From Bacteroidota bacterium (GTDB lineage Bacteria; Bacteroidota; Bacteroidia; Bacteroidales; Prolixibacteraceae), in contig JAUXUF010000094.1 in assembly GCA_030684645.1 (NCBI GenBank), positions 1 to 64,000 of the forward strand: a DNA stretch of 64,000 nucleotides, in the 5' to 3' direction. Shown here piece after piece: positions 43,334 to 64,000 of this stretch. The position numbers and the translations under genes are program-made. Numbering within the stretch: the first letter of the stretch is position 1; the number at the start of each line of letters is the position of its first letter. The notes below the pieces were generated by a model. It saw only the letters and a list, made by a program, of their open reading frames with translations. It did no database searches and had not been told where the DNA came from.

Positions 43334-45742
43334 CTACCAAATCAATTCCATGGTTTGTTCTTTTTTCAGATTAATTTCCTTTTTCTCATTGCCGTAATAG
43401 ATTGTCGTTTTTCCTGAATTTTTCGCAAAAACACTCAGCTTTTTGATGGTCATGCCAGTCCATTCCATCGACACTTCAAGACCGCCACGGGCACAGATTC
43501 CCTTTACTGAACCTTCATTCCAGGCTTCAGGAAGAGCTGGCAACAAATGGATTTCATTTTCGGTTGACTGAACCAGCATTTCGGCAATAGCTGCCGCTCC
43601 GCCAAAATTACCATCAATCTGGAAAGGCGGATGAGCATCAAACAAATTTGGATAGGTTCCTCCGCCTCGTTGATAATTGGTTTTTACACCATCGGGTTCA
43701 ACGTATTTCAGCAATTCGCGGTACATCTTATAGGCATGGTTTCCATCCAACAGTCTAGCCCAAAGGTTAATCCGCCACCCTTTCGACCAGCCTGTCGTTT
43801 CATCACCTTTAATTTCGAGTGTTTTCCGGCAGGCATTTGCCAGTTCGGGAGTTTGTAATGGTGTAATTTGGCTTCCGGGGAAAAGTCCGAATAGATGAGA
43901 CTGGTGCCGGTGTTGCGGGTCCTGATCATCCCAGTCGTAATACCATTCCTGAAGATTACCTTTTTTGCCGATCTGGTATGGATGCAATTTTGCCAGTGCC
44001 TGTTCCAATTTACTTCTGAAATCAGCATCCAGATTCAAAACTTTCGAAGCCTGAATGGTTTGCTGAAAACATTCGCGTATCATAGCCAGATCAGCAGTTC
44101 CGCCATACAAAGTAGCGCCAGCATATCCGTCAGGAGTCATGTATTTATTTTCCGGAGAAGTGGAAGGCGAAGTAATCAGTTTCCCAGTCTTGTCTTCAAC
44201 CAGCCATTCCAGACAAAACGTGGCAGCTCCTTTCATCAGGTCGTAGCCTTCATTTTTCAGGAATTTCAGGTCGTGAGTAAATAGATAATGTTGCCAAAGA
44301 TGCGTGCTAAGCCAGGCGCCACCCATGTTCCAGCAGGCCCATACCGGATCGCCATTACCAAAATCGCCAACCGGATTGCTCATGGCCCAAATATCAGAGT
44401 TGTGGCAAACTGTCCAGCCATTTACACCGTAAAATGTTTTTGCAGTAACTTTTCCGGTACTGGCCACATTTTTAATAAAACTGAGCAGCGATTGGTGCAT
44501 TTCCGATAAATTGGTATTTTCTGCCAACCAGTAATTTTCTTCAGCATTGATGTTGGTGGTATAATTGCTACTCCAAGGCGGACGGATATGTGGATTCCAG
44601 ATTCCCTGTAAATTGGCCGGAACGCCCGGTGTTCGCGAACTGCTGATCAACAAGTAACGGCCAAACTGAAAATACAACACTTCCAGATTTTTATCTTCTT
44701 TTCCTTCAGCATAACGCCTCAGCCGCTCATCGGTCGGTAAATCAGGAGCATCTGTTTTTCCGAGGTTCAGGCTGACACGATTGAAATATTTCTGAAAATC
44801 AGCAAGATGAGATTTTTTCAACTTATCGTATGATTTCGATAATGCTCCTTTAAGTTGATTATCAGCCAATAGCTCAGCATTCAAACCTTCGGATACCGGA
44901 TTTTTATCGAAGCCATTAAAACTGGTTGCAACCGAAACAAACACCAAGGCTTCGGTTCCTTCTGAAAGACCTACTGATTGGTCAGTTGCGGTAAGTTTTC
45001 CATCCTTGTTTTTAATCTTGATCCGGGTGGCAAAGCGAATACCTTTCGTTTCATCAAAAGTTACGGCATTGGGCTTGTTCCCGCGATAATTTGGTTCGGC
45101 ATGAGTGGGTGCGAAACCCTTTGCTTTCAATATATTGTCAGTTATTGATACCGAATTTTTAAGCTGACTTTCGAATTTTATCCCAAAGTTTAAAGCTCCT
45201 TTCTGGCTGCTTGTCAGCTTGATCACCATCATCTGATCGGGATAGGAAACGAAATATTCGCGGGTAAATTTTACTCCTTTTACTTCGTAACTGACTTTTG
45301 AAATGGCTTCTGAAATATTCAGTTCGCGGTGATAATTCTGCGGATCGCCCTCATGCTTAAATTCCAGGAAAAGAGTTCCAAGCGGTGAGTATGATTCGGA
45401 AAAACTACCCTGTATTTTTTTATTCAGCTGATCTGCCAGTTTATAATCTTCATTTTTCAGCGCTTCGCGAATAGCCGGAATATTTTTGTAAGCTTCCGGA
45501 TTCATGTTGGGATTGACCGGTTCGCCCGACCAAAGAGTGGCGTCGTTCAGAAATATTTTATCGGATGTGACACCTCCAAAAACAGAAGCGCCCATCTTAC
45601 CGTTTCCGAGTACTAAACTTTCCTCGAAATACTGAGCGGGTTGTTTGTACCACAACGTGTTGGCCGATTGCGCCTGGCATAGATCAGCTCCGAATAGTAT
45701 CAGAATAAAAGTCAATAGGAAAAGATAATTCTTCATGATCAT
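43334..45742 (-). CDS. Glycoside hydrolase family 95 (alpha-L-fucosidase/galactosidase)
   Basis: An exported 802-residue enzyme with signal peptide YLFLLTFILILFGADLCQAQ. GH95 landmarks: WYKQPAQYFEESLVLGNGKM, then FGGVTSDKIFLNDATLWSGE at the start of the N-terminal beta domain; TTNINAEENYWLAE (the Asn pair of the base site); SPSTSPENKYM (general-acid Glu); and QIDGNFGGAAAIAEML (Asp after the barrel). GH95 enzymes mostly remove alpha-1,2-linked L-fucose by inversion; some act on L-galactose. It is the last gene of the right-hand minus-strand series, 79 bp from the toroid gene. A second ATG two codons in (45736) is an alternative start. Confidence 0.93.
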   Translation of the reverse strand: MIMKNYLFLLTFILILFGADLCQAQSANTLWYKQPAQYFEESLVLGNGKMGASVFGGVTSDKIFLNDATLWSGEPVNPNMNPEAYKNIPAIREALKNEDYKLADQLNKKIQGSFSESYSPLGTLFLEFKHEGDPQNYHRELNISEAISKVSYEVKGVKFTREYFVSYPDQMMVIKLTSSQKGALNFGIKFESQLKNSVSITDNILKAKGFAPTHAEPNYRGNKPNAVTFDETKGIRFATRIKIKNKDGKLTATDQSVGLSEGTEALVFVSVATSFNGFDKNPVSEGLNAELLADNQLKGALSKSYDKLKKSHLADFQKYFNRVSLNLGKTDAPDLPTDERLRRYAEGKEDKNLEVLYFQFGRYLLISSSRTPGVPANLQGIWNPHIRPPWSSNYTTNINAEENYWLAENTNLSEMHQSLLSFIKNVASTGKVTAKTFYGVNGWTVCHNSDIWAMSNPVGDFGNGDPVWACWNMGGAWLSTHLWQHYLFTHDLKFLKNEGYDLMKGAATFCLEWLVEDKTGKLITSPSTSPENKYMTPDGYAGATLYGGTADLAMIRECFQQTIQASKVLNLDADFRSKLEQALAKLHPYQIGKKGNLQEWYYDWDDQDPQHRHQSHLFGLFPGSQITPLQTPELANACRKTLEIKGDETTGWSKGWRINLWARLLDGNHAYKMYRELLKYVEPDGVKTNYQRGGGTYPNLFDAHPPFQIDGNFGGAAAIAEMLVQSTENEIHLLPALPEAWNEGSVKGICARGGLEVSMEWTGMTIKKLSVFAKNSGKTTIYYGNEKKEINLKKEQTMELIW

Positions 45743-45821
45743 CGATTTAGGATTTAGTTATCCAAAGAAACAATATAAGGAAAGAATTCGATTCGGCTTC
45801 AAAAAAATAGCGTTCAACATC

Positions 45822-46748
45822 CTATTCAAATTCGAAATTCCTGATAATCCGCATGGCCCTAAAGGTATTCCAGCGGCTTGGTCTGCCTGGAATTTCCATA
45901 TCAAAATGCGTCTGGCCCGGATGTTTGGCCTGAAGTAACCATTTTCGCTCGGAAGTCCGCTTTTTTAAAAGTAACTCTATGGCATCATCCATTCGTCTGT
46001 CATAAGTAATTTTTGCATCCTGAAAATAGTCTAGAGCCCTCAGAACATCATATCTCCAGCGGCAGGGATATGAAAAACGGGTAAACTTTTCATCGATTAT
46101 TTCTCCTGTTTTATCCGATTTATACAAACGGTGCTGAAGAATAAATTCAACCGACTCATTGGCCATTTGCTGCAATTCAGACAACCGGTAGGTATATCCA
46201 TTGCGGGAATATTCCAGAATACCTTCCAGAACCGAAAGAGTGGTATGCAGTGAACTGTGAATTGCTCCTTTCATGTTGGAATTACAGTTAAAACCGCCAT
46301 CTTTCATTTGCTGGCTGATCAAAAAATCAATTACCGATTCGATTTGACCTTCCGAAGCGCCAAAATATGCAGCGTAATTCAGAAACATACCATTTAGGCA
46401 AACATCGCTGTGTTTTATGGTAGAGATCGGATGAATCCCACCATCGGCACACTTTTCATATCCGATAATCAGGTCAAGCGTTTGTCTGATTTCGGGAAGT
46501 AACGGATTGATGTCCAGATTTTTTAATTCGAGTAAAGTATAATGCGATGAAGTCCATTTGGGCTGATAAAAACTGCGTCCCCAGTGACCATTCGGAAGCC
46601 GTCTAGATAAAAGTTCCTTTCCCCAGCCTTCGGTTGATATTCGCTTTCGAAAATTAGGTTTTTCCGAATTCAACAAATCGCGGAAAACCTGGTATTGAAT
46701 GGAAATATCTCCTTCCAAGAGCCATTGAATGACTGGGTTGCTGATCAT
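45822..46748 (-). CDS. Prenyltransferase/squalene cyclase-like alpha/alpha-toroid protein
   Basis: A 308-residue protein without a signal peptide. Repeated helical units with Gly-Gly-Phe or His-Trp-Gly turns (GHWGRSFYQPKWTSSHYTLL, YEKCADGGIHPIS, QQMKDGGFNCNSNMKGAIHS) mark the alpha/alpha6 toroid fold of terpene cyclases and prenyltransferases. The Asp-rich DxDD catalytic motif of cyclases is not seen, so it is more likely a relative with unknown activity. It is 46 bp downstream of the epimerase gene. Confidence 0.7.
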   Translation of the reverse strand: MISNPVIQWLLEGDISIQYQVFRDLLNSEKPNFRKRISTEGWGKELLSRRLPNGHWGRSFYQPKWTSSHYTLLELKNLDINPLLPEIRQTLDLIIGYEKCADGGIHPISTIKHSDVCLNGMFLNYAAYFGASEGQIESVIDFLISQQMKDGGFNCNSNMKGAIHSSLHTTLSVLEGILEYSRNGYTYRLSELQQMANESVEFILQHRLYKSDKTGEIIDEKFTRFSYPCRWRYDVLRALDYFQDAKITYDRRMDDAIELLLKKRTSERKWLLQAKHPGQTHFDMEIPGRPSRWNTFRAMRIIRNFEFE

Positions 46749-46794
46749 TGGGTAGGTTCTTTGGGATACTTTCTCCTTTATTTCGTTGAAATGA

Positions 46795-48054
46795 CTACTT
46801 TTCTTTGAATACCGCTTGTATCATATTAATTCCGACCCCAGGCTGATCAATTAGAGTTACTTTCCCATTTACTACCTGAACACCTTTGTACGGATCGTTC
46901 GAAATCAGCAGGTTCCCATCCAGATCGGCCCAGTCGGTTTTGGGAGACAGTTGAGCTGCTGCTGAAACTGCACACGAAGTTTCGGTCATGCAACCGATCA
47001 TTACCTTCATTCCCATCGATTTGGCCAGCGTAAGCATCTGGTGGGCTTCGCGCATTCCGGTGCATTTCATCAGTTTGATGTTTATTCCGGAATAAACTCC
47101 GTTGGCTTTCATCACATCCGGAAGTCGTTGCACGGCTTCATCGGCAACCGTGGGCAGCGGACTGTGTGCGGTTAGCCAGGCCATATCGTCGATGGCTGTT
47201 TTGGACATCGGCTGCTCCACAAAAACGACACCTTTTTCCTTTAACCAGTGAATCATGTCGAGCGCCATCTGTTTGTCGGTCCAGCCTTGGTTAACATCTA
47301 CACAAAGCGGCACATCAGTAACCGACCGAATGGTTTCAATCATTTCGCGATCGGTTTTCTGTCCGAGTTTGACTTTCAAAATCCGGTAAGGAGTAGCTTC
47401 GGCAACCTTTTGCCTCACCACTTCCGGAGTATCGATGCCGATGGTAAATGAGGTGTTGGGCGTATCAGCCGGATCGAATCCCCATATTTTATACCAGGGC
47501 TGACCCATTATTTTGCCAACCAGGTCGTGCAGGGCAATGTCAACAGCAGCCTTTGCTGCACAATTTCCGGGCATAACCGAATCAACATGCCGAAGTATAT
47601 CTTCCATCTGAAACGGGTCGTTAAACTGGCTCAGATTAAGCATAGAAAGAAATTTCGTTGCAGTAACAACACTTTCGCCCAGGTAAGGAGGCATGGAAGC
47701 CTCGCCATAACCGGTAACACCTTCAAATTCGAGACTTGTCAGAACGTCCGGAGTACTTTTGCGTGAACTGTTGGCGATCGTAAAGGTATGCCGCAATTGT
47801 AAATCGTAGGGTACAAAGCGTAAAACCAGTCCTTTCCCTGAATTTTTGGTGGTTTTCTTTTTCATGGCTGCAAATAGAGTTTCGATCCCGGTTAAACCGG
47901 CAACAGCTGTTAATCCTGTAGTTCGTATAAAATTGCGTCGGGAAAATGGAAGCCTCTCCCCAACCCTCTCCTCAGGGAATAGCCCCTCCCCAACCCTCCC
48001 CTCAAGGGAGGGAGTAAAACCGCTTTGATTGTTATTTTTCGAAATTTTGGTCAT
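46795..48054 (-). CDS. L-Ala-D/L-Glu (dipeptide) epimerase, exported form
   Basis: An enolase-superfamily enzyme that epimerises L-Ala-D-Glu from murein. Active-site residues: LKVKLGQ (K-x-K pair), CVDVNQGW (metal Asp), VEQPM (metal Glu), TVADEAV (metal Asp) and NIKLMKCTG (second catalytic Lys). A twin-arginine-like signal SRRNFIRTTGLTAVAGLTG occurs at about residues 38-57. The 37 residues before it (including TPSLEGRVGEG and FPEERVGERLP) are translated from two copies of a C-rich palindromic repeat. An alternative start inside or after the repeat would remove them; no ATG lies between, so the long form may be real or a GTG/TTG start is used. Confidence 0.9.
   Translation of the reverse strand: MTKISKNNNQSGFTPSLEGRVGEGLFPEERVGERLPFSRRNFIRTTGLTAVAGLTGIETLFAAMKKKTTKNSGKGLVLRFVPYDLQLRHTFTIANSSRKSTPDVLTSLEFEGVTGYGEASMPPYLGESVVTATKFLSMLNLSQFNDPFQMEDILRHVDSVMPGNCAAKAAVDIALHDLVGKIMGQPWYKIWGFDPADTPNTSFTIGIDTPEVVRQKVAEATPYRILKVKLGQKTDREMIETIRSVTDVPLCVDVNQGWTDKQMALDMIHWLKEKGVVFVEQPMSKTAIDDMAWLTAHSPLPTVADEAVQRLPDVMKANGVYSGINIKLMKCTGMREAHQMLTLAKSMGMKVMIGCMTETSCAVSAAAQLSPKTDWADLDGNLLISNDPYKGVQVVNGKVTLIDQPGVGINMIQAVFKEK
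47949..48016. repeat. C-rich palindromic repeat, double copy, inside the epimerase 5' end
   Basis: AGCCTCTCCCCAACCCTCTC and AGCCCCTCCCCAACCCTCCC are two tandem half-copies, and the second ends in CTCAAGGGAGGGAG. They encode the peptides with the pattern TPSLEGRVGEG / PEERVGERLP on the minus strand. Same family as the repeats at 9.7, 13.0 and 13.1 kb. Confidence 0.8.
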
Positions 48055-48104
48055 TTATTATTTTATTGATTGTTCTTAATAATCTGTTATTCTTCATTCA
48101 ACGC

Positions 48105-48191
48105 TCTCTTAAAGTCCTCCCTTGAGGGGAGGATTTAGGTGGGGCTTCCTCTTTAAGCCCCCTCTTGTGGAGGGGGTTGGGGGAGGCTTTA
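48105..48191. repeat. C-rich palindromic repeats, two further copies
   Basis: AAGTCCTCCCTTGAGGGGAG with TTAGGTGGGGCTTCC (48114-48150), then TTTAAGCCCCCTCTTGTGGA leading into GGGGGTTGGGGGAGGCTTTA (48152-48191), lie between the epimerase start and the NlpC/P60 stop. Each folds by pairing its C-rich and G-rich halves. The second copy reaches into the last codons of the NlpC/P60 gene. Confidence 0.75.
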
Positions 48192-49370
48192 ATACCACGG
48201 ATGATTTTTCACCAGCACAATTCCTTCGGTGTTCAGTGAATTCATGATCCGGCCAGCAGCTACCAGATCCTTCCGGTCAGAAGCGCTAAAATCAGGAGAT
48301 TTGGGATTGATATTATTGATGCGTACTAATCCGGCGGCAGCATTAATATATTTATCGTTTCCCAGGTACAAGCCAACATGCGTGATTCGCTGAGCACTCC
48401 GGCCAAAAAAGAGCAAATCGCCAGGCGCCAGGTTCGGGATATCATTAAAATCGGGATGCTCACCATATCTGGCTTGCTGCGAGGCATCGCGCGCCAGGAT
48501 AATTCCCTGGGAAAAATAGGCAGTTTTGGTCATACCTGAACAATCAACCGCTTTGCACGAGGTTCCACCCCACAAGTAAGGCACGCCCATTAATTGTTTT
48601 GCAACTGATATTACGGCCTGAACATCAGGTTTCTGACTGGTCCATTTCTGCCAGGAAAGACAATCCGATTTTTTAACAAAACCGCTACGGCCATCAGGAA
48701 AACGAACCTTTAAAAATCCTTTAGTTACGGACTCAACCTCCAGTAAATCGCCCATTACCAAATCACTGACGATCTCACTTTTACGGCTGGGAGAAGCGAA
48801 AACATTCCCCATTATCCGTTTATAAATATAACGGTTTGATTTTTTCCAGCCATTCAACTCTGCTGAAGTTAAGCGCTTAAATGCGCTTCCTTCCATCCAT
48901 CCAATGTAGTAATCGGGGGTTTGCACCCGGTACCATCCGCCCTTGTGATCCAATACTTTTAATGGAGTTCCCATCAAAGCCTGAGAAAGCATTTCCGCAG
49001 CATGATCGGGTTTTGAACGCATACTTGAAGCGGAAAGTGTGACCAGGCCCCAGGTTTTGTCGCCTAATGAAGCGTCAGGCAAAACCTTGATCGAATCGAC
49101 AAATTGAAATCCATTCGTTTTCAGGAGTTTTATTATTGCTATTTTTCCTTCCGGAAGATTGGTTTCACCTTTTACTATTAGCACTGGCTGTAGCGGGTCG
49201 CTCAGCGAAATATCCAGTATAGCCACCCGTTTATCAGGAACCAGTTGCTTCTGAATGGTCTGAATCTCTCCATTCAGGTTTTTGAAGGACGTAGTCTGAG
49301 CGTCAGCAAACAATCCGGCAGAAATTACCAGAAGGATATTCAGCAGTATTTTAGAAAAAATTGTTTTCAT
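48189..49370 (-). CDS. NlpC/P60 (C40) cell-wall peptidase with SH3-like domains
   Basis: A 393-residue exported enzyme (signal LLNILLVISAGLFADAQ). The middle carries bacterial SH3 domains (GLVTLSASSMRSKPDHAAEM; GNVFASPSRKSEIVSDLVMG). The C-terminal NlpC/P60 domain has the nucleophile Cys in VDCSGMTKTAYFSQG (about residue 278) and His in ITHVGLYLGND (about 330), followed by a third polar residue. SH3-NlpC proteins such as YkfC cut gamma-D-Glu-L-diamino acid bonds in muropeptides, which fits with the dipeptide epimerase next door. Confidence 0.92.
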   Translation of the reverse strand: MKTIFSKILLNILLVISAGLFADAQTTSFKNLNGEIQTIQKQLVPDKRVAILDISLSDPLQPVLIVKGETNLPEGKIAIIKLLKTNGFQFVDSIKVLPDASLGDKTWGLVTLSASSMRSKPDHAAEMLSQALMGTPLKVLDHKGGWYRVQTPDYYIGWMEGSAFKRLTSAELNGWKKSNRYIYKRIMGNVFASPSRKSEIVSDLVMGDLLEVESVTKGFLKVRFPDGRSGFVKKSDCLSWQKWTSQKPDVQAVISVAKQLMGVPYLWGGTSCKAVDCSGMTKTAYFSQGIILARDASQQARYGEHPDFNDIPNLAPGDLLFFGRSAQRITHVGLYLGNDKYINAAAGLVRINNINPKSPDFSASDRKDLVAAGRIMNSLNTEGIVLVKNHPWY

Positions 49371-49389
49371 TTCAGTATTGGTTTAGAAC

Positions 49390-50853
49390 TTATTTAATTG
49401 TAAAAACAGCTGACCGTGCTGATTCAACATGATCGTTGTTGGATGCGGTCACAAAATAACTCTTTCCGGCCAAGCCAACAAATTGAGTGTCAGAAAAAAC
49501 CTGGACAGCATGTGCCTGGTAGAAATTTAATAATACCTTATCTTTTTCGAGCAAATATACGGCATATTTTTCTGCACTTGAAACTGCATCCCAACTTAGC
49601 TTTGATCCGGATAAAGTTACCAATGGAGCCGCTGCTGCAGGAGCCGTCAACTGGCCCATAACAGGCAGCAACGATGGATATTGATATTTGGTTTTCAAAA
49701 AACTGGACAGCTCCTGATTTTCCAGATATTTCATCCGGAAAAAGAAACAACCATTCAAATTGGTATTCTTGCGGACTTCTTCAATCTGGCGGTCGAATTC
49801 AGTGACCGAACCATAAGCCGGATATGCTGGATCCTTAAACTTGTAAGCTGCAATCCCGATTACCATTGGAATTCCACGCGCATTACTGCTCCAGAATGCG
49901 GCCTGTTTTCCAAAATCAGCAGTTGCATGACCAAACTCCCAATATATCTGAGGAGCCAGGTAATCGACCCATTTGTTATCGAGCCAGATGAACGGATCAG
50001 CATATAAATCAAGACTGTTTTCGCGTCGGCCCGAGGGCGAAATTCCAAACAAAACGCCGGGTTTATTGGCTTTGGTCACCTGGTTAACTTCGGAAACCAT
50101 CAGGTTGACATTATCGGCCCGCCAGGTATGAATATCTTTCCCGTTTCCGTATTTTTCAAAAGCAGCCTTGTCGTCAAACCCAAACGGGTTACTGGTCGAT
50201 TTTGCCCCGGATGGATAAAAATAATCGTCAAAATGAATGGCATCCACATCATATCGGGTAATGATGTCCTTAACCACAGCCATCAGATGTGCCCTCACTT
50301 CTGGCAAACCCGGATTAAAATACCGGTTGCCCGCAAAAGTTACCATCCATGATGGATTTTTTACGGCCACATGACTGGAAGCAAGCACTACCGAAGTGGC
50401 GCCAATCCGGTAAGGATTCAGCCAGGCATGAAATTCCATGCCCCGTTTGTGAGCTTCATCAATGGCAAACTTCAGCGGATCGTAACCGGGATCCTGACCT
50501 TGCACGCCAGTCAGATAAATGGACCAAGGTTCGAGGTCCGACGGATAAAAAGCATCGGCTGTTGGACGGATTTGCATAATCACAGCATTAAAATTCAGCA
50601 TTCGACAATGTTCCAGATGTACAAGAAGTTCAGACTTTTGGGCATCCGGATTGGCTTTGGTTGTGGGCCAGTCGTAGTTACCCACCGTGGCAATCCAGGC
50701 CGCCCGTATTTCTTTTTTATCGGGTACAATTTGGTCTTTTTCGGCATCATAAGGACGGGTTGCCTCGTCGATTTCCGGAATAGTATCGTCCTTCCGGCAT
50801 GACCAAACCAAAGAAATCAGGATCAAAATGATCAGTAGTTTATTGCGGTTCAT
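49390..50853 (-). CDS. Family 10-like glycosyl hydrolase (GHL10) lipoprotein
   Basis: A 487-residue lipoprotein (LILISLVWSCRKD). The catalytic TIM barrel has EIRAAWIATVGNYDWPTTKA (about residues 47-66), NAVIMQIRPTADAFYPS and DAIHFDDYFYPSG (about 205-217), the signature of the GHL10/DUF187 family, in which the FDDYFYP Asp acts in catalysis. The C-terminal part (about 395-487) is a fibronectin type III-like domain. Homologues such as YngK are linked to cell-wall or peptidoglycan glycan breakdown. It lies 20 bp upstream of the NlpC/P60 gene. Confidence 0.88.
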   Translation of the reverse strand: MNRNKLLIILILISLVWSCRKDDTIPEIDEATRPYDAEKDQIVPDKKEIRAAWIATVGNYDWPTTKANPDAQKSELLVHLEHCRMLNFNAVIMQIRPTADAFYPSDLEPWSIYLTGVQGQDPGYDPLKFAIDEAHKRGMEFHAWLNPYRIGATSVVLASSHVAVKNPSWMVTFAGNRYFNPGLPEVRAHLMAVVKDIITRYDVDAIHFDDYFYPSGAKSTSNPFGFDDKAAFEKYGNGKDIHTWRADNVNLMVSEVNQVTKANKPGVLFGISPSGRRENSLDLYADPFIWLDNKWVDYLAPQIYWEFGHATADFGKQAAFWSSNARGIPMVIGIAAYKFKDPAYPAYGSVTEFDRQIEEVRKNTNLNGCFFFRMKYLENQELSSFLKTKYQYPSLLPVMGQLTAPAAAAPLVTLSGSKLSWDAVSSAEKYAVYLLEKDKVLLNFYQAHAVQVFSDTQFVGLAGKSYFVTASNNDHVESARSAVFTIK

Positions 50854-50879
50854 TATAATTTTATTCTTCTTCTGATTTT

Positions 50880-50907: not shown

Positions 50908-52746
50908 TTAAAATTCGAGGCAAGCCACACATCCATCCATGGATGAAACCAAAACCTGGTTATTGCTGATCGGGTTGACGGCATTGATCAGGGCATTCGA
51001 TAGTTTATATTTCCAGGCAACCTGGTGCGTCTGTTTGTCGATGGCCACTATAATCCCACTCCCGGTTGGTACAAAAATCAGATTTTCGTTTTCAACAATG
51101 GGAGATGGTGCAATTTCGTAACCCAGTTCGGCCTGACATTCCCAGGCCAGCGATTGTTTGTTGGGAAGGGTATGAAATGCCAATACGTTTCCTTCCTGCA
51201 TATTTTTGATGTACACCAGCTTTCCATCGTTTGAAATCCCAATCGATTCGCGACAGGAATATTTTCCGGAGTCCCAGATTTCGGCGCCAGTTTTGGCATC
51301 GAGAGCAGTCATGCGACGATCGGGGGCCACGATGAAAACCTTACCGTTGGCTGCAACCGGCCAGACTGCAGCAGGCGACAACATCCGGTTGGCATATTTT
51401 TCATGTTTCCAAAGCAGTTTCCCGGTTTGCTTATCGAGGGCATAAAACGAATTTCCCCACGAACCGAAATAAACAGCTCCTTCAAAAACCAAAGGTTTTG
51501 TTTCCACAAAGTTTGTCACTCCGTCAAATTGCCACATCAGTTTTCCGGACAATAAATCAATCGCCCGGAATATTCCTTCGGAAGACCCGATGTAAACGGT
51601 ATTCTGATCGATGACCGGCGATGCAACAATCGGTTTGCCGGTTTCCAGTTTCCATTCAGGTTTACCGGATTTCAGGTTCAGGCAGTAAATGTTTTTGTCA
51701 GTCGATGCACAAACTATATGATTTCCGCTGATCGCTGGTGTTGAGTATATTTTACCTGACGTCTGAAAAAGCCAGCTAATTTTTCCGGAGTTTTTATCCA
51801 AAGCAACAATTTCGCCTTTGGTGTTGGCATAAACGGCGAACTTTCCCATGCAGGTAATACCTGTTCCAATGTCGCACTGATCCTGAAACTGCCATTCGAC
51901 TTTTACCTGAGGATATTTTGAATTGATTGAAAAGTCAGGACGTGGCCATTTGGTGGTGTCCTGAAGAAAATTTCTCATGCTCAAAGGCACTTTACACCAA
52001 ACCGGATTTGTTTTTACTCCCGGAGTTCGTTCGGAATAAAAGAGTGTATCAGGAGTTAATGTAGCTATGTTGTACCCGCCAATTTCATTTTTAGCCCGAA
52101 GGTTCGAACGCCCCATCACGCCGGGAATTCCCTCAAAGTTGAACAATTTGTTGGCGTGACCGTGTCCCAACAGACTGACCTGAATGTTGCGGGTTTTTAA
52201 TTTGTCAATCACCTCATAACCGTTTGAAAGCGATTCGTCTAGCGGATAGTGATTGACAAAAATAATAGGCTCATCTGGATTTTTCATATGCCCCAGAATG
52301 GAATCAAGAAAAACCATTTGCTCGCGGGGAACCAATCCTGGAGCCATGCGCATGTTGGGACCGCTGGCTGTTCCGATGAATAAAAATCCGTTCTTTTCGA
52401 AGGCAAAGCCTTCAGCGCCGAAGATCCGGACAAAGCTGTTATTCCCGCTTTCCGACCATTTCGAATCGTGATTTCCCGGAACGATGTACCAGGGCTTATT
52501 GAGTTTGCTGATTATTTCCTTTGCTTCCAGCAATTCCTGATCGGAGCCAAATTCAGTGATATCTCCTGAAAGGATTACCAGATCAACATCGGTTTGCCGA
52601 TTAATATCATCTATTGTTCGGACCAGGTCCTCTGATGCTGTCGAACCTCCGGTATGAGTATCGGTAATATGGGCAAAGCGGATCGTTTGGGCTGAAACGA
52701 ATCCAATTTGCAGAATGAGGAAGAAAAGTAGAGTTAAAATTCGCAT
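50908..52746 (-). CDS. Metallophosphoesterase fused to a PQQ-like beta-propeller
   Basis: A 612-residue exported protein (signal RILTLLFFLILQIGFVSAQ). N-terminal calcineurin-like domain: FAHITDTHTGGST (first two metal ligands), ILSGDITEFGSD, VPGNHDSKW and FVNHYPLDES, then LLGHGHANKL. From about residue 280 the second half is a beta-propeller whose blades carry ALDKNSGKISW, CLNLKSGKPEW, AIDLLSGKLMW, ALDKQTGKLLW and ALDAKTGAEIW. The same propeller family forms a separate protein at 24899. The hydrolysed substrate is unknown; a phosphodiester or phosphomonoester in the periplasm is the broad expectation. Confidence 0.9.
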   Translation of the reverse strand: MRILTLLFFLILQIGFVSAQTIRFAHITDTHTGGSTASEDLVRTIDDINRQTDVDLVILSGDITEFGSDQELLEAKEIISKLNKPWYIVPGNHDSKWSESGNNSFVRIFGAEGFAFEKNGFLFIGTASGPNMRMAPGLVPREQMVFLDSILGHMKNPDEPIIFVNHYPLDESLSNGYEVIDKLKTRNIQVSLLGHGHANKLFNFEGIPGVMGRSNLRAKNEIGGYNIATLTPDTLFYSERTPGVKTNPVWCKVPLSMRNFLQDTTKWPRPDFSINSKYPQVKVEWQFQDQCDIGTGITCMGKFAVYANTKGEIVALDKNSGKISWLFQTSGKIYSTPAISGNHIVCASTDKNIYCLNLKSGKPEWKLETGKPIVASPVIDQNTVYIGSSEGIFRAIDLLSGKLMWQFDGVTNFVETKPLVFEGAVYFGSWGNSFYALDKQTGKLLWKHEKYANRMLSPAAVWPVAANGKVFIVAPDRRMTALDAKTGAEIWDSGKYSCRESIGISNDGKLVYIKNMQEGNVLAFHTLPNKQSLAWECQAELGYEIAPSPIVENENLIFVPTGSGIIVAIDKQTHQVAWKYKLSNALINAVNPISNNQVLVSSMDGCVACLEF

Positions 52747-52762: not shown

Positions 52763-53779
52763 TTATTTGGCTTTTCTGACCCAATCGATTATCCCTTTTC
52801 GAATCTTTTTGGCGACCTTCATCTGGAAGGAACGATCCATGATCTGTTTTTCATCAGCTTCATTGCTTAAAAAGGCACCTTCGACCAGGCAATTCGGATA
52901 TTCTGTCGGGCCATTCAGCGAAAAATTAAAACTGCCAATGTTGCCGAAATCATTCAAGCCGAGTTCAAGTAATCGGTCTAAAACAGCTACGGAGAGCGGC
53001 TTAAATCCGATGTACCGATAATAAGTACTTACCCCTTTCACGTTCGGATTTGAAGCCGAGTTGTTATGAATACTGATTAAAAGATCAGGATTAGTCTCGC
53101 GAAGCATCAACAAACGATCAGTCATACTGAGATCAATATTTTTTTTATACTTGATCGAATAGCCCCAAAGTTGTGCATGCTTCAACTCAATTGTCACGCG
53201 GAAAAGATCATCTTCAAGCTGTTCATGATACACATTTTTGATTTCTTTGGCTGACTTGAGCTGGGTGATCCAGTTGGTATTTCCGGTTGCCCCATAGATA
53301 TCGACAACAATGCGCGAGGGATCAATCAGTTGAATACTTTGATAGGGAAGTCGTTCATCAAGACCGATTGTTACATAGTCCTGCTTTTCGTCTCCTGATA
53401 CATTCCAGGAAGAAGTAAGATAATAATCGGGTTTCCTGATATCACTCAAAAGCTTCACATTCTCTTTTGGAATAAATGCCCGATGATTTCGTGAGAGACG
53501 GACGATATAATCATTCCTGAGACTATCTACAATTTGCAGAACAATCGCGGTATCCAAATAAGTCATCTTGGCCCCACCGAGCCGGTCAATTCCGGGGCCA
53601 TACTTGAGGAAAGGCATTAAACCCTGAGTTCTTCCACTAAGTATAATTTCTTTCTTCTGGATTGCAATGCTGTCGCTTTGTCCAAATGAAAAAGTATAAC
53701 AAGATATTCCAATAACAAGGATAAAAGCTTTTAAGAAGCCAAATCGCACAAACTGGCTCAGAAAATTTCGTGAAAGCAT
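52763..53779 (-). pseudogene. N-acetylmuramoyl-L-alanine amidase with catalytic core deleted
   Basis: A 338-residue exported protein (signal in AFILVIGISCYTFSFGQ). The N-terminal domains match Bacteroidota cell-wall amidases (SH3-like part and an AMIN-like part ending in HAQLWGYSIKY). It then passes directly into IDLSMTDRLLMLRETNPDLL and ISIHNNSASNPNVKGVSTYY, and CLVEGAFLSN follows. In complete Amidase_3 enzymes an additional segment with the zinc motif DxGHGG and the Glu of EKD lies between these points; here about 50-70 residues are gone in frame. The junction is at an 8-bp homopolymer (53139-53146). Two of four metal/catalytic residues remain (His of SIHNN, Glu of VEG). Activity is unlikely. 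Confidence 0.75.
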
Positions 53780-54525: not shown

Positions 54526-55371
54526 TTAGTTTAATACAATAGTACTCAACCTGATAGACTGTTCAGCATATTTGGCGCCCTCTTTTCCGTTTATATGGAA
54601 AATATAGTTCCTCCCTTTACCCAGTTGAAAGCCTGTAAAAACCACATCTGCCAAGGCACCTGTAGAGGTTGGATAAGCCTTAAGAAGTTTCCCTGCAGCA
54701 TCAAAAACAGCAAAAACCATTGCAGTTTCTGTTCCTGACCATACAGTACCACTCTTTACCAATTTATAAGGAATGAGTTTGGATGCTTCCTTGAAACCGC
54801 ATGAAGCGATATCAATATACTTGTATGGACTTGCAGTTGTTCCTGCCCCCCTTCTACCCTTCAAAAAAAGCGTTCCGTAAGGAGTTACACCATCAGCTTT
54901 ATAAAACAGGTTCACAAATTGAATATGTGCCAAGGTATCGGCCCAGGCATCGCTGGAAGGAAATACGTCGGCATCCTTTACAACAAAAGGAACTTCAGTA
55001 AGACTATGAATAAAAACCGAGTATTTTCCGGAAGCAACCGTAAAAGAATTGCTGTATTGCAAAACATCTTTAGTTGTACTTTTGTAAACATCAACTTTTA
55101 CGCTACCCTGAGGCACAACATGATATCTAGCTGAACTGTTCGGGAAAATACCACCTAAAGCGGTGGTGACTTCAGAGACCAACTGGTCATTGTATGTTAG
55201 TCTTGTTAAACTCTGCGTTGAGCTGGTTACCAGAGGAGCGTCGTACACTAACCTCACTTCTGCAGATTTGGCCAGGTCTATATCTGTGCTTCCGAATGTG
55301 ATTTCATTCAACTGGCAGGATGCCAACAGAAACACCATTAAGACAGAAACTAATGCTAATATTGTTTTCAT
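54526..55371 (-). CDS. DUF4397-like lipoprotein downstream of SusD
   Basis: A 281-residue lipoprotein (lipobox VFLLASCQLN, Cys about 19). Two Ig-like beta domains are likely: KSAEVRLVYDAPLVTSS, PQGSVKVDVYKSTTKDV, SNSFTVASGKYSVFIHSL, then AHIQFVNLFYKADGVTPYGT and LGKGRNYIFHIN. This is the pattern of DUF4397 surface lipoproteins that follow SusCD pairs. It lies 26 bp downstream of SusD. A ligand-binding surface role is plausible but not shown. Confidence 0.75.
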   Translation of the reverse strand: MKTILALVSVLMVFLLASCQLNEITFGSTDIDLAKSAEVRLVYDAPLVTSSTQSLTRLTYNDQLVSEVTTALGGIFPNSSARYHVVPQGSVKVDVYKSTTKDVLQYSNSFTVASGKYSVFIHSLTEVPFVVKDADVFPSSDAWADTLAHIQFVNLFYKADGVTPYGTLFLKGRRGAGTTASPYKYIDIASCGFKEASKLIPYKLVKSGTVWSGTETAMVFAVFDAAGKLLKAYPTSTGALADVVFTGFQLGKGRNYIFHINGKEGAKYAEQSIRLSTIVLN

Positions 55372-55397: not shown

Positions 55398-57188
55398 TTA
55401 ATTAGCAGGCAAAGTAAACCAAACCATTGAGGTATTATACTCATCAGCATCGCCAGGGATTGGCAAAAGCTTCTGTAATGAAGGTAGGTTCCACATGTAC
55501 TCCGAGTTATAACGCGGACGTAGTCGGTAGGCAGGTGATCCTATGTTAGCCGGTGCAAACTTAGTCCTTCTGTTAAGCACATCGGCTGCAGGCAAGTAAA
55601 ATCCTTTATAAACTCTTGAAGGATCAGAATCCAGCTTATGGTAAACCATGTCACTTGTCCATGAAGTTCCGCTCACCGGCACACCACCAGCGCCAACAAC
55701 AAGATCGTAATGATAACGGCGAAGGTCATTCCAGGTATCCAAACTCCATGGGAACAAAGCAACATACTTTTGCATCATGATGTTTGAAAGTGAAAAGTTT
55801 GCAAGGGACATGTTGTTTACAAACTTACTGTTCATGTATTCTGTTGCCAGGGTGCTGAATCGTGCTGCTGTAATTTTATCACCAATGACAGAGGTTTGTT
55901 TAGATCCGGTTTTAACAATTGTTCCTGGAACTATCAGGCTTTTGACAAAATCCATATGCCCCGCTACACCGTTTTTGAATGCAGCAAATGCTTCAGCTTT
56001 TTGTCCTTTAAGATAGAGAGCTTCAGCTTTAACAAACTGAATTTCAGCATAAGTAGAAAGAGGCCACGGCGCTTCGTCCCGGTAAAGCCATCTTCCTGTT
56101 CCATTCTTAGCCACAGTTGGAGCTGTGGTTGATCCCCATAAGGTACAGGCCGCAGTATTGGTCAATTTTGTACCCACAAATTTATAGGTACCCTTCTTTA
56201 CTTTACTCTGGTCAACCATCATTGTATCCAAGGTTCCCAGTAAAAGAATTGATCTTGGGTCAAGAGTAGCTGTATCAGTCACCATCTGGTATGGACTTAG
56301 TCCTTCTATCGCACCTGAACTGTTGTAATTCGGGATCGTACCGGTCAAAACCTGAACAATATAGTCAGACTGGGTAAAAGCATTGGTTAAGTTTCCTCTT
56401 AAAACTCCAAAGAAATTTGAAGTTGAAGAGACTCCTGTTGCCTGAAACTTCAGGGATGCATCATCAGCTGCACTGGTGAATGATTTGTCAGCACAAATGA
56501 TGGCAGAATCCAGGTAGGCGGTATTTTTCTTTGCCATTGCAATATAGTTTCTGGCCAAAACAGCATAGGCAAATTTTTTCCATTTTGCAGCATCTCCCTT
56601 ATAAATAAGGTCTGTGGTTGCCAGGCTACCAGGATATACCGTATTATCAGTCTTTTCAAATTCGGCAATTGCCTGCTTTGCCCATGAACGAACTTTAGAG
56701 AATGCATACTCCTGACTGTCATAATTGTGAGACAGGAGACCGGGAACAAACGCATCCTTTACCGGTAGATCTCCGTGTAATGAGGCGAGGATGTGCCAGG
56801 AATAAGCTTTAACGGTTAAAGCTATCCCGGCAAGTTTATACTGTTCAAGGTCTCTTCCGTCATTAATAATACGCTCGACATTCATACCCTGAAGCCAGTA
56901 GGTCATTCGCCAGCATTCGCCTGCAGCATCGCTTCCGGCGATGAAAGTATGCAAAACACCAAAATTGGAAACGTAGGTTGAAGTCCCGCTAAAATATTCA
57001 GAAAGTGGTGCAACAGCCCGTAGGTCATAAGCTATACCCTCATAAGAGGCAAGTACTGGTCCCAACCGAAGAATTGGGTTAACCCAGTCAGGAGCGTCAA
57101 CGTTTTTATTTATATCCAGCCAGGTTTTAGTACAAGAGCTAGTACCAATGACCAGAAGTATAATGAATGATATTATTATCTTTCTCAT
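55398..57188 (-). CDS. SusD/RagB-family nutrient-binding lipoprotein
   Basis: A 596-residue outer-membrane lipoprotein (lipobox LVIGTSSCTKTW). The N-terminus WLDINKNVDAPDWVNPILRL and the TPR helices (AVLARNYIAMAKKN; AEIQFVKAEALYLKGQKAEA) mark the SusD-like_2 branch. It caps the SusC channel and hands over the ligand. It begins 12 bp after the SusC gene end. No sugar or peptide specificity can be read from the sequence. Confidence 0.93.
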   Translation of the reverse strand: MRKIIISFIILLVIGTSSCTKTWLDINKNVDAPDWVNPILRLGPVLASYEGIAYDLRAVAPLSEYFSGTSTYVSNFGVLHTFIAGSDAAGECWRMTYWLQGMNVERIINDGRDLEQYKLAGIALTVKAYSWHILASLHGDLPVKDAFVPGLLSHNYDSQEYAFSKVRSWAKQAIAEFEKTDNTVYPGSLATTDLIYKGDAAKWKKFAYAVLARNYIAMAKKNTAYLDSAIICADKSFTSAADDASLKFQATGVSSTSNFFGVLRGNLTNAFTQSDYIVQVLTGTIPNYNSSGAIEGLSPYQMVTDTATLDPRSILLLGTLDTMMVDQSKVKKGTYKFVGTKLTNTAACTLWGSTTAPTVAKNGTGRWLYRDEAPWPLSTYAEIQFVKAEALYLKGQKAEAFAAFKNGVAGHMDFVKSLIVPGTIVKTGSKQTSVIGDKITAARFSTLATEYMNSKFVNNMSLANFSLSNIMMQKYVALFPWSLDTWNDLRRYHYDLVVGAGGVPVSGTSWTSDMVYHKLDSDPSRVYKGFYLPAADVLNRRTKFAPANIGSPAYRLRPRYNSEYMWNLPSLQKLLPIPGDADEYNTSMVWFTLPAN

Positions 57189-57200
57189 CGCTTTAATGAA

Positions 57201-60299: not shown

Positions 60300-60756
60300 T
60301 TCATTTCAATTAATTTTGGTTTATGTGAAATATAGAATTAAATTATTGATCTAATACAGAAATAAGTAGCAATTGATTCTTTGTTAAGACAGCAAAATTA
60401 GTTACCATAAAAAAAACAAAGTGTCTGTAAAAATGATCAGAACAACAACACGGAGCCAACGGGGATCAAATATTAACACTAAATCGTGCCACTAAATTAA
60501 AACATTATTACCAAAAAATATGTGTTTTTGTAACATGTAATACCAATTTCTTTATTAAAAAATTTAACTTTTTTTAACAGATTGATTTACAAAGTTTTAA
60601 AAAACACAAATCAGGATATTATTTTTTATAACATATCCAGAACTGAAATTTTCGTCTTTCTGTTTAGTCAGAACTAAACTTCTGAAAAAAAAACAAGGTT
60701 ATTTCAATTCCCTTTATCTTTTTTCGACTTCTTTATTATTCTCATATATCCTGATA
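60300..60756. other. Upstream region of SusC
   Basis: About 457 bp of AT-rich sequence between SusC and the DUF1343 gene. On the minus strand TTTG (60420-60417) and TAATTTTG (60400-60393) lie 16 bp apart and resemble the -33/-7 consensus, though spacing is shorter than the usual 18-21. I see no sigma/anti-sigma gene or hybrid two-component regulator. No reading frame of note. Confidence 0.4.
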
Positions 60757-61998
60757 CTATGGATACAGCAAGTACTTTTTGCGAATATTTTTGAAATTTG
60801 ACAAGCCGGGTTCCCAGGAATCACGAATCTCTTTTTCAGATTTTCCGGCAATAATCTGGTCTTTGAGGAAGTTCACTCCAGCCAGTTTGTCGAAATTTCC
60901 CATTTGTCTGCTTTGTTTGTAATCGAAGAATTTATCTTTAAACGGATATGTCTGATAAAGCTCTATCAGCCATTTCAGGTTAATCTGCCCGGTTTTGCGG
61001 AATTCGCTGGTATCGAATTTCCGGAGATCGAGACCATAACATGCTTTATCCTGATGCAGTGGCGTTTCGCTCATTCCATTTATACGGACCGGAGTAAACG
61101 AAAATTCGTATTTGCCCTTTAAATCAGGATTTCCAAGTACAGTAAACGGAAAATGTGTTCCGCGCCCCTGACTGATAATTGTTCCTTCAAACAAGCATAG
61201 CGAAGGGTATAAAAGTATGGATTGTTGAGTATTCAAATTGGGTGATGGAGAAACCGGTAATACATATTCCATATCATGGGTATAATTGGCTACTGGTATC
61301 ACAGATATTTTACACTCAACCTGATTGGCTAGCCATCCTTCTCCGTTGTACATCCGTGCCAGTTCGCCAATCGTCATTCCGTGTGTGATCGGAATCGGGA
61401 ACATTCCAATACCTGATTTCAGTTTCATGTCGAGAATGGGGCCGTCAACGCTAAAACCATTTGGGTTTGGACGGTCGAAAATCAACAATTCCTTGTTATT
61501 ATCAGCACAGGCTTCCATCACCCTGGCCAGCAAATTGATGTAGGTATAAAACCTGGCTCCCACATCCTGAATATCAAAGATCATCAGGTCAACATCAGCC
61601 AGATCTTCTTTCGATGGTTTACTTTTCTTTCCGTAAAGCGATATTTCCTGAATTCCGGTTTTGGCATCGATGCTGTCGGATACCACTGCTCCGGCGCTGG
61701 CTGTTCCGCGAAAACCATGCTCCGGACCAAAAATCTTGACGATTTTCACTCCCAACGATTTCAGGCTGTCGATCATTGAAACTTTTCCGATGACGGAAGT
61801 TTGATTGGCAACCACCGCAATCCGTTTACCCTGTAATAGCGGAAGGTATTTGTCGGTTCGTTCGGCTCCGGTTTTGATACTGGTTTGTGCCGACGAAGTA
61901 TTATCAACATTCAACCTTTTTTGAGGTGGATTTCCGCAGGAAATAAGAAAAGAAAAGATAAAGGTCAAAATCAATACAGAAGCGGTAATTGTTTTCAT
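60757..61998 (-). CDS. DUF1343 protein, exo-beta-N-acetylmuramidase (NamZ family), copy 1
   Basis: NamZ enzymes release N-acetylmuramic acid from the ends of murein glycan. A 413-residue lipoprotein (lipobox FLISCGNP). Landmarks: LLQGKRIAVVANQTSVIG, FGPEHGFRGTASAG, LMIFDIQDVGARFYTYIN, IFDRPNPNGFSVDGPIL and PITHGMTIGELARMY, then SPSPNLNTQQS. The gene is read after the URO-D-like gene with a 34-bp gap. Confidence 0.92.
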   Translation of the reverse strand: MKTITASVLILTFIFSFLISCGNPPQKRLNVDNTSSAQTSIKTGAERTDKYLPLLQGKRIAVVANQTSVIGKVSMIDSLKSLGVKIVKIFGPEHGFRGTASAGAVVSDSIDAKTGIQEISLYGKKSKPSKEDLADVDLMIFDIQDVGARFYTYINLLARVMEACADNNKELLIFDRPNPNGFSVDGPILDMKLKSGIGMFPIPITHGMTIGELARMYNGEGWLANQVECKISVIPVANYTHDMEYVLPVSPSPNLNTQQSILLYPSLCLFEGTIISQGRGTHFPFTVLGNPDLKGKYEFSFTPVRINGMSETPLHQDKACYGLDLRKFDTSEFRKTGQINLKWLIELYQTYPFKDKFFDYKQSRQMGNFDKLAGVNFLKDQIIAGKSEKEIRDSWEPGLSNFKNIRKKYLLYP

Positions 61999-62032
61999 AA
62001 AATGGACTTAATAAGTTGAATTTACTTTGCGC

Positions 62033-63064
62033 TTATTCATTGACAACTTCAATCATTGCCAAATAATTTTCGATTGGGACATATGCCGGAATGCTGTTGC
62101 CTGAACCCAATGCATAAGCCGTTGAACCTGTCATCGCCAGCATTTTCCGGCACCGTACTTTTATCTTTTCCGGTTCGCCGCGAACCAGAAAATCCATGTC
62201 GATACCGCCCATAATTGCTATCCGGTCGTGCCAAAGTTCCCAGGCCTTTTCGATCGGTAAAATTGTATCCTCAAACGAATGTTTGGCATCGTATTTTAAA
62301 TCCTCAACGATATCGTCAATCACATCGGTTAAATTACCACAGGAATGAAGGATGGCATATTTGCTGTTTCTGTGAATGGCTTCCACCATTCGTTTATGCC
62401 ATGGGAAAACATGTTGACGCAAAGTTTCGGGCGATAGCATGGTCTGGGTTTTGAATCCCCAGTCGTCGTTTACAATCAGCGCCCCAACCGGCGCCACCGA
62501 GCTGCATATTTCATAAAATCTCAGCAATCGTGAACCTACCGCATCAAAAATCTCTTTGGTCAGTTCCTCGTCTTCATAAATCATGAAACAAAGGTTTTCA
62601 AATCCAACCAGTTCAATTACATTTTCCAGGAGACCTCCAGGCCCTGGAATGATCAGTTTCATTCCGTCGTTCAGGAAAGAAGCCGATTTCAGCAAAAGCT
62701 CAAAATTGCCCTTTTCGGGATCCGGCCAATTATAGGATTCAAATGATTTTCGGTCGGTTATTACAGCACCATCGTTCAGCGAAACGGTTTCTTTCTTTTC
62801 ATGACCTGCAGTCTCAAAGGAGAACGTATCGAAATACCGCGACGGAATAGTGGCGTAATCGTAACCGGCCGCATAAAAAAACCGGATGATTGATTTTATT
62901 TGATCTATAGGATTGTTCAGGGAAGAAAATGATTCGTCGTTAACGAACGAAATCAAATCTCCGTTCACAAAGTATTCAAAAAGCACCGGCCTGTCAGGTG
63001 TCTGACGGCAAAGCACTTTCTCCAATTGATGAAAGTCAGCAGGATATTTACGGGGTGCAATCAT
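62033..63064 (-). CDS. Uroporphyrinogen decarboxylase-like family protein
   Basis: A 343-residue TIM-barrel protein of the URO-D/methyltransferase superfamily. VLFEYFVNGDLISFVNDE, GPGGLLENVIELVGFENLCF, LIVNDDWGFKTQTMLSPETL, ILHSCGNLTDVIDDIVEDLK and IMGGIDMDFLVRGEP are typical of the corrinoid-methyltransferase-like branch rather than of HemE. SCGN in this branch often binds zinc or the substrate. It overlaps the upstream NamZ gene by 4 bp (ATGA), so the two are coupled. The substrate is unknown. Confidence 0.85.
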   Translation of the reverse strand: MIAPRKYPADFHQLEKVLCRQTPDRPVLFEYFVNGDLISFVNDESFSSLNNPIDQIKSIIRFFYAAGYDYATIPSRYFDTFSFETAGHEKKETVSLNDGAVITDRKSFESYNWPDPEKGNFELLLKSASFLNDGMKLIIPGPGGLLENVIELVGFENLCFMIYEDEELTKEIFDAVGSRLLRFYEICSSVAPVGALIVNDDWGFKTQTMLSPETLRQHVFPWHKRMVEAIHRNSKYAILHSCGNLTDVIDDIVEDLKYDAKHSFEDTILPIEKAWELWHDRIAIMGGIDMDFLVRGEPEKIKVRCRKMLAMTGSTAYALGSGNSIPAYVPIENYLAMIEVVNE

Positions 63065-64000
63065 TTATATAAATAATATTTCTTCGACAACCGTTGAAAT
63101 GCCGCTTCATCTTTTCGCCAATAGGATAACATTTCATCCACTTTCATATTTTTCGACATCAGTAAACGGATTTGATCGGAGCCGCAAACCTTGTCGAACA
63201 TGTTGAAACGCTTCTCCGTTTCCGGCCCAAAACATTTTTCATCGGGATACAAAGCAGCCATTTCCTGCATCACATAAAACTGGATTTCAGTCAGCCTGAC
63301 CTTTTTGTAGTCGGTCAGATAATATTGAACACCCGAATAGTTCTTCCCCTGGCCAACGGCATAGAAAGGTTTCAGGTAAATCGGACGAAATAATACTCCC
63401 GGCAAATGCAGGTCATTCATCCTTTTGGACAATAAACCGGCATCAATAGAATCTTTCGCAAACAACTGGAATGGAAGGGTATAGCCCACTCCTATCGACA
63501 TAAAACTGAATTCACCCAAAATACCGGAAGCCGCATAATAACAGGCCGAAGAAGCTTGCGGAATATGCGGTGATGTCAAAACCCATGGCAAACCGGTTTG
63601 TTCGAAATTCATTTTTCGTTTCCATCCTTTCATGGGCACGACGGTCAGTTTACACTGCTTATCCAGCATCTTTTCGCCGTTTAGCAGTCTAGCCAATTCG
63701 CCGCAGGTAAGTCCGTAGATATATGGGATTTTGAATTGGCTCACAAACGAGATGAATTTGTCTTCAGCCAGATTGCCTTCCACTTTCAATCCACCAACCG
63801 GATTCGGACGGTCGAGTATGACAAATTCGATGTTATTTTCGGCAGCCGCTTCCATCGCCAGTCCCATGGTACTGATAAACGTGTATGAACGGCATCCGAT
63901 ATCCTGAATGTCATACACCAAAACATCCACATTTTTCAACATATCGGCCGATGCTTTCCGGGTTTTTCCGTATAGTGAATAAACAGGAATTCCAGTCTGT
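63061..64000 (-). CDS. DUF1343 protein, exo-beta-N-acetylmuramidase (NamZ family), copy 2, cut by the window
   Basis: The frame is open to the window end: before the first internal ATG (63942) it reads GIPVYSLYGKTRKASADM, so the N-terminal 90 or so residues lie outside. Landmarks match copy 1: LVYDIQDIGCRSYTFISTMG, ILDRPNPVGGLKVEGNL and YGLTCGELARLLNGE. The first-domain GPEHGFRG motif should be beyond the edge. It is coupled to the next gene by an ATGA overlap. Confidence 0.9.
   Translation of the reverse strand, partial: QTGIPVYSLYGKTRKASADMLKNVDVLVYDIQDIGCRSYTFISTMGLAMEAAAENNIEFVILDRPNPVGGLKVEGNLAEDKFISFVSQFKIPYIYGLTCGELARLLNGEKMLDKQCKLTVVPMKGWKRKMNFEQTGLPWVLTSPHIPQASSACYYAASGILGEFSFMSIGVGYTLPFQLFAKDSIDAGLLSKRMNDLHLPGVLFRPIYLKPFYAVGQGKNYSGVQYYLTDYKKVRLTEIQFYVMQEMAALYPDEKCFGPETEKRFNMFDKVCGSDQIRLLMSKNMKVDEMLSYWRKDEAAFQRLSKKYYLYK

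Follow-up and report, generated by a model that had tools for sequence, protein, structure and literature searches.

The 64,000-nt stretch of DNA analysed here (the window) comprises positions 1-64000 of contig JAUXUF010000094.1 (C121) from the genome of a Prolixibacteraceae bacterium (GCA_030684645.1; G000), and its right-hand part holds a gene cluster built around a SusC/SusD (SusCD) outer-membrane transporter pair. SusCD-type importers are best known for the uptake of plant sugars, and the neighbours of this pair include a set of enzymes that break down bacterial cell wall. In the window and the remainder of the contig every gene of the cluster is located on the minus strand, and the open reading frames (ORFs) and Pfam matches are as first described. 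A preliminary description had listed two NamZ proteins, an NlpC/P60 peptidase with SH3 domains, a dipeptide epimerase, a GHL10 glycosidase and a SusC/SusD pair with an accessory lipoprotein on one strand, and ORFs and Pfam agree with all of these; its gene list lacked the phosphoesterase-propeller and URO-D-like genes, which are added in Table 1. The cluster continues for 8.5 kb past the window edge, where GH3/beta-lactamase-like, DUF4922, glycosyltransferase and xanthan-lyase-like genes extend it upstream to the end region of the contig (72776). In the order of transcription the genes are xanthan-lyase-like, glycosyltransferase, DUF4922, GH3/beta-lactamase-like, NamZ, URO-D and NamZ, followed by SusC, SusD, lipoprotein, DUF4251, AMIN/Amidase_3, phosphoesterase-propeller, GHL10, NlpC/P60, epimerase, toroid-like and GH95. 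SusC and SusD are separated by 12 bp and the gaps from SusC through NlpC/P60 measure 6 to 92 bp, so the genes from SusC downward likely form a single transcript, whereas the NamZ group, 457 bp away from SusC, is likely transcribed separately.

Table 1. Genes of the SusCD cluster, with positions in the window and the basis of each assignment.
Feature	Position	Strand	Basis
SusC-type TonB-dependent outer-membrane transporter, 1032 aa	57201..60299	-	CarbopepD_reg_2, Plug, TonB barrel
SusD-like protein, 596 aa, predicted lipoprotein	55398..57188	-	SusD-like_2; lipobox by eye; SusD fold
Accessory lipoprotein after SusD	54526..55371	-	Lipobox by eye; without Pfam match
DUF4251 protein	53872..54519	-	Pfam
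AMIN and shortened Amidase_3	52763..53779	-	Pfam; alignment with relatives
Calcineurin-like phosphoesterase fused to PQQ-type propeller	50908..52746	-	Pfam
GHL10 glycosidase-like, predicted lipoprotein	49390..50853	-	Pfam; lipobox by eye
YkfC-like NlpC/P60 peptidase with SH3 domains	48189..49370	-	Pfam; best solved relative 3npf
Dipeptide epimerase, Tat-type (RR) N-terminal extension	46795..48054	-	Pfam; 3iji, 519 bits
NamZ-family protein, predicted lipoprotein	60757..61998	-	NamZ_N 252 bits, NamZ_C 124.6 bits
URO-D family protein between two NamZ genes	62033..63064	-	Pfam
Second NamZ-family protein	63061..64296 (window edge 64000)	-	411 aa full length
Toroid-like protein	45822..46748	-	Without Pfam match
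GH95 enzyme	43334..45742	-	Pfam

The transporter belongs to a clade that recurs next to genes of cell-wall salvage in many Bacteroidota. The clade set consists of the best 80 of 261 loci from a pattern-based scan of named genomes with a SusD alignment, many of them cut by contig ends, and is not a census; five of the loci (L126, L128, L129, L131 and L135), all within the 20 nearest to the window, are the same records as genomes of the family set described below. The family names used here follow the record titles, some of which look doubtful (L131 is labelled Odoribacter, yet lies in the window's genus). A separate class-wide search with the SusD alignment (197 genomes, at most six candidates scored per genome) matched the window's own gene alone and was treated as uninformative on distribution. 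NamZ, epimerase, YkfC-like NlpC/P60, MurQ, MurK, AmpG, SpoIID, GH3/beta-lactamase and AMIN-amidase served as salvage markers, with blastp matches of at least 100 bits within a reach of about 10 kb and with queries that came from two relatives and from the window's genome, including its contig, a choice biased toward near relatives. Of the 80 clade loci 30 have a marker close to SusCD, whereas none of 40 control loci does (Fisher p 5e-7, relatedness ignored); the controls are other SusD genes, after removal of fragments belonging to one gene, of the SusD of the window itself and of a few weakly matching places. The result is 24/80 versus 0/40 with a stricter marker list, 32/80 versus 3/40 at a 60-bit limit, and 23/60 for the clade loci that are left after removal of the 20 nearest relatives. 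In 29 of the 30 marker loci a marker is on the same strand as SusD, and the gene order varies between loci. Marker-bearing records are labelled Prolixibacteraceae, Paludibacteraceae, Porphyromonadaceae, Rikenellaceae, Tannerellaceae, Marinilabiliaceae, Sphingobacteriaceae (7/8) and Flavobacteriaceae. A clustering of all neighbours in the 80 loci that used no marker list returned the lipoprotein (69), DUF4251 (23) and NamZ (20) as the leading families, then the epimerase (14) and NlpC/P60 (12) interspersed with second SusCD pairs, and more rarely GHL10 (10) and the phosphoesterase-propeller (9).

A SusC tree was built from 70 of the 80 loci together with the window and six controls (77 rows). 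It places 69 of the 71 non-control rows on a common long stem with 100% support in the Shimodaira-Hasegawa-like approximate likelihood ratio test, and along the tree the marker state switches at least 12 times. The two loci outside the clade are L136 and L144, for which we think that another SusC of the locus was taken. A different setting of the clade SusCD is seen in L132-L134, L137-L140 and L142, where it lies near an LpxK-like gene (by our reading) and a dihydrouridine synthase (Pfam, L132) and not near wall genes.

The preliminary description had proposed a peptidoglycan locus around the SusCD pair, and had named SusCD and NamZ genes in unrelated neighbourhoods in relatives as the finding that would speak against it; the linkage in varied gene orders and several families, with its contrast to the controls, points the other way. 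The comparison has thus strengthened the peptidoglycan reading, with the substrate of the SusCD pair remaining putative. Within the window NamZ, GHL10 and NlpC/P60 point to peptidoglycan, whereas GH95 does not. We consider it reasonably probable that this is a locus for scavenging peptidoglycan fragments, in which the SusCD pair would import wall fragments of other bacteria.

Several observations weigh against this interpretation. In 50 of the 80 clade loci no marker lies within reach, and among the 20 nearest relatives 13 are marker-free (L130, L132-L134 and L136-L144; SusD 67-75% identical to that of the window), all of which keep SusD and mostly also SusC, the lipoprotein and DUF4251; ten of these make up the group that is sister to the window's subclade (support 92). 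No markers were seen in records labelled Muribaculaceae (0/5), Chitinophagaceae (0/5) and Dysgonomonadaceae (0/2), and only nine genomes supplied the 40 control loci, 15 of which lie in the genome that also holds the window. Class-wide, a second NamZ copy is associated with the clade (45/50 versus 4/118, some matches being fragments, as in G210, G324, G065 and G076), but within the window's family the link is weak (5/9 versus 19/91, p 0.03), so lineage may explain much of the class-wide contrast, which is suggestive at most. Finally, the predicted SusD model (mean pLDDT, the predicted local distance difference test score, of 66) has tied top fold matches, with about equally good fits to chitin-binding and to other SusD proteins, and thus does not separate sugar from peptide binding.

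The structural relatives of the transporter bring in the main rival explanation. SusC and SusD form an adjacent pair with the regulatory, plug and barrel domains and the SusD fold, and the closest named SusD matches are in metagenome assemblies labelled Odoribacter sp. (86%) and Prolixibacteraceae (85 and 81%). Among solved structures the best SusC relative is BT2264 of Bacteroides thetaiotaomicron (5fq6) with 363 bits, the next reaching 166, and the SusD fold is shared as well, a likeness that stems from sequence and fold and not from tree placement. The BT2261-64 and RagAB SusCD structures contained oligopeptides, as described in the part of the source consulted (PMC7782687). The pair might accordingly be an importer for oligopeptides in general, like BT2263-64 or RagAB, that is often situated near peptidoglycan genes since stem peptides are among its cargo, which we regard as unlikely while giving it more weight than the other rivals discussed below. 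An M3 oligopeptidase gene common to six clade loci and an M24-like peptidase (by our reading) in six would agree with such a role, as would the marker-free clade loci, but the commonest recurrent enzyme near the clade is NamZ, which acts on glycan, and an oligopeptide importer would have no need for the MurQ- and AmpG-like genes that also occur there.

Within the family, neighbourhoods of the epimerase were compared in a set of 100 genomes, with the clade SusD called at 48% identity or more and the epimerase at E up to 1e-30. The clade SusD is present in nine of the genomes (the window's included) and the epimerase is matched in 76, in G018 solely via a distant paralog; the counts that follow refer to 74 genomes, without the window and G018. 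Near the epimerase, NlpC/P60 is found in 61 loci and NamZ in ten; 12 loci have SusC together with a SusD match, and five have the clade SusD, one of these lacking its SusC in the stretch. Some SusC-like gene lies near the epimerase in 29 of the 74 loci; for want of a baseline, these SusCD densities (12/74 and 29/74) carry no weight as evidence here. Members of the window's genus have the pair upstream of the epimerase, whereas G045, G069 and G007 have it downstream. More distant SusCD pairs, whose SusD is about 21-29% identical, are located near the epimerase in L052, L053, L054, L080, L086, L090, L094 and L104, as if the importer slot beside it had been refilled by other SusCD pairs. These eight family loci could also be taken to mean that the SusCD pair came by chance to lie inside a cluster for cell-wall recycling whose substrate it does not share, a notion further favoured by the 62 of 74 epimerase loci with no recognisable SusC with SusD, a figure from an insensitive detection that relies on a single SusD query. 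We find such hitchhiking very improbable, as the same clade accompanies salvage genes in many families and in varied gene orders, compared with none of the control loci.

Candidates for the remainder of the salvage pathway lie elsewhere in the genome. The N-acetylmuramic acid (MurNAc) kinase, AmpG-like permease and MurQ that the preliminary description had proposed to look for beyond the right edge have candidate counterparts, but on other contigs: on C214 a MurQ-like gene (289 bits; curated cut-off 302) adjoins a MurK-like kinase, and on C124 an AmpG-like frame, matched in two stretches (100.9 and 77.2 bits against a cut-off of 350), adjoins a SpoIID-like frame. The names MurK and SpoIID are our reading of the sequences. 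As the assembly consists of 408 contigs, a wider linkage of the MurK-, MurQ- and AmpG-like genes to the locus may exist. MurA is also present (434.9 bits), and MurNAc auxotrophy is therefore not expected in this organism.

Divergently beside the murKQ-like pair on C214 lies a gene for a GH9-polysaccharide deacetylase fusion (L123:11419-13878), and the same fusion is found in nine of the 80 clade loci (L148, L151, L161, L166, L174, L178, L181, L184 and L187) and in none of the 40 controls. It could possibly, as a matter of speculation, provide a deacetylase and a glucosaminidase step on wall glycan. The fusion, the chitin-binding SusD proteins among the best fold matches and the GH95 gene in the window could alternatively be ascribed to a locus for another amino-sugar glycan, chitin-like or of glycoproteins, with the salvage genes shared for N-acetylglucosamine (GlcNAc) metabolism. 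This seems to us very improbable, marginally more so than hitchhiking: no chitinase is among the recurrent neighbour clusters that were named (not all clusters were identified), NlpC/P60 and the dipeptide epimerase act on peptides, and the GH9-deacetylase gene itself adjoins murKQ in the window's genome.

Tannerella forsythia carries a member of the clade at locus L184, on contig NZ_JUET01000082, which also holds the genes Tanf_08345-08385, the operon for use of muropeptides and MurNAc, whose YbbC protein we take to be NamZ. In L184 a xanthan-lyase-like gene on the minus strand has its start at 5303; the plus strand carries a MurK-like kinase (start 5638), SusC (6883) and SusD (10001), which leaves 1.6 kb between the start of the clade SusC and that of the divergent first gene of Tanf_08345-08385. 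According to the portions of the original report consulted, Tanf_08345-08385 is one transcript by reverse-transcription PCR, headed by the xanthan-lyase-like gene, and its AmpG function and growth on muropeptides have been tested (PMC5388701). The window and the operon described there share the grouping of xanthan-lyase-like, glycosyltransferase, DUF4922 and YbbC/NamZ genes (PMC5388701), the DUF4922 gene being, by its position in L184, the second gene annotated as a glycosyltransferase in the operon. MurK-, MurQ- and AmpG-like genes are present in the window's genome as in T. forsythia, where the clade SusCD adjoins the operon; unlike in T. forsythia, the window has SusCD, NlpC/P60 and the epimerase on one strand with NamZ, and other contigs hold the AmpG/SpoIID-like and MurKQ-like genes. 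The masses computed for L184 (SusC 113.7, SusD 71.2, lipoprotein 32.6, second SusC 117.4 and second SusD 67.5 kDa) equal the values tabled in the vesicle proteome for Tanf_08335, 08330, 08325, 08320 and 08315, the tags being matched by order and mass, and Tanf_08335 has the second-highest value in the list of TonB-associated proteins in that part of the source, in a column that we take to be the protein score (PMC4604654).

The passages on the operon do not mention a SusCD pair, and the word SusC occurs zero times in the text available (PMC5388701); an outer-membrane transporter for wall fragments likewise did not come up in the searched text of three T. forsythia papers (PMC5388701, PMC5790795 and PMC7670621). 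Salvage steps at the inner membrane and in the cytoplasm have been studied in T. forsythia. We tentatively suggest, as a possibility that falls somewhat short of probable, that the clade is a dedicated outer-membrane importer of peptidoglycan fragments in many Bacteroidota and that Tanf_08335/08330 is the missing outer-membrane step through which MurNAc-auxotrophic T. forsythia acquires the wall fragments that it needs. With candidate proteins of the clade in a cultured organism, this step becomes directly testable. If true, SusCD systems would have a cargo range wider than polysaccharides and plain peptides, with a bearing on how microbial communities share wall fragments.

A peptidoglycan-scavenging route through the locus could proceed as follows, in an order of steps that is our proposal, with reactions of NamZ, NlpC/P60, the epimerase, MurK and MurQ that are those of their families and with compartments assigned from signal sequences judged by eye. 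The SusC barrel, the SusD lid and the accessory lipoprotein would bring in soluble wall pieces that other bacteria release, either muropeptides or stem peptides already freed. Still outside the cytoplasm, the terminal MurNAc would be taken off by NamZ, the NlpC/P60 enzyme would split the bond between L-Ala-gamma-D-Glu and the diamino acid, and L-Ala-D-Glu would be converted to L-Ala-L-Glu by the epimerase, which is apparently exported; the xanthan-lyase-like protein may stand in for the amidase step lost by the truncated Amidase_3 protein. The AmpG-like permease or another carrier would then move sugars and peptides across the inner membrane, and MurK followed by MurQ would turn MurNAc into GlcNAc-6-phosphate.

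Both NamZ proteins, of a family that is presumably GH171, are covered over nearly their full length by the NamZ_N and NamZ_C domains. The adjacent NlpC/P60 and epimerase genes strongly match the Bacteroides YkfC-like peptidase 3npf and dipeptide epimerase 3iji; 3pvq is the other top solved match of the former, and for the latter the runner-up, 3jva, reaches 136.5 bits. The match to 3iji begins at residue 78 of 419. An RR-type extension of the twin-arginine translocation (Tat) kind is present in the window's enzyme and, as defined by a pattern of our own, in 53 of 73 relatives and absent in 20, which suggests export of the epimerase. The Amidase_3 relative of the preliminary description is present as an AMIN-Amidase_3 protein, but its catalytic domain is incomplete: the profile is matched from position 42 onward only, and an in-frame stretch of 71 residues that includes the GHGG motif is missing in this genome alone of five aligned, the four relatives being intact, so the protein is probably inactive. 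A sixth copy, from G097, is split over two frames and was left out of the alignment. The GH3/beta-lactamase-like protein (L003:1470-3389) has 633-639 residues in the window's genome and two congeners versus 997-1013 in 13 genomes of other genera, some other rows being shorter pieces, and its GH3 catalytic part is hence missing in these three. Matches below the Pfam cut-off were seen for GH3_C in this protein and for Amidase_3 in the xanthan-lyase-like protein.

A partial precedent in print is a locus of a Urechidicola mussel symbiont, described in a 2023 paper, with two SusCD pairs together with murQ, nagB, ampG, an Ala-Glu epimerase, an amidase, GH3, GH18, GH10 and GH171, most genes of which are murein-related according to the figure legend (PMC10199937). 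It is presented there as a polysaccharide utilization locus with an unknown source of substrate, and the likeness to the window noted here is one of gene content; the word peptidoglycan is absent from the main text as accessed, and the section on the locus does not propose peptidoglycan import (PMC10199937). No paper among the matches listed, a scope outside which most subscription papers fall, names a SusCD importer for peptidoglycan fragments, and none is proposed in the accessible portions of PMC6080902, PMC7670621, PMC11382707, PMC11658791, PMC6987092, PMC10877868, PMC10811738 and PMC7768429.

GH95 and the toroid-like protein, considered misfits from the outset, are outside the conserved gene set. 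The toroid-like protein has no homolog in the neighbourhoods scanned, and GH95 lies near the epimerase in six of the 74 family loci, all of the window's genus. GH95 as a sign of a fucoside locus was considered and dropped, as it persists near the epimerase in four of these six with no SusC detected. The URO-D family gene, for which we know of no role in wall salvage, overlaps a NamZ gene by four bases and is also found near NamZ or GH3/beta-lactamase in G047, G095, G045 and G097. The phosphoesterase-PQQ-propeller fusion turns up repeatedly in loci with NamZ, MurQ or the epimerase.

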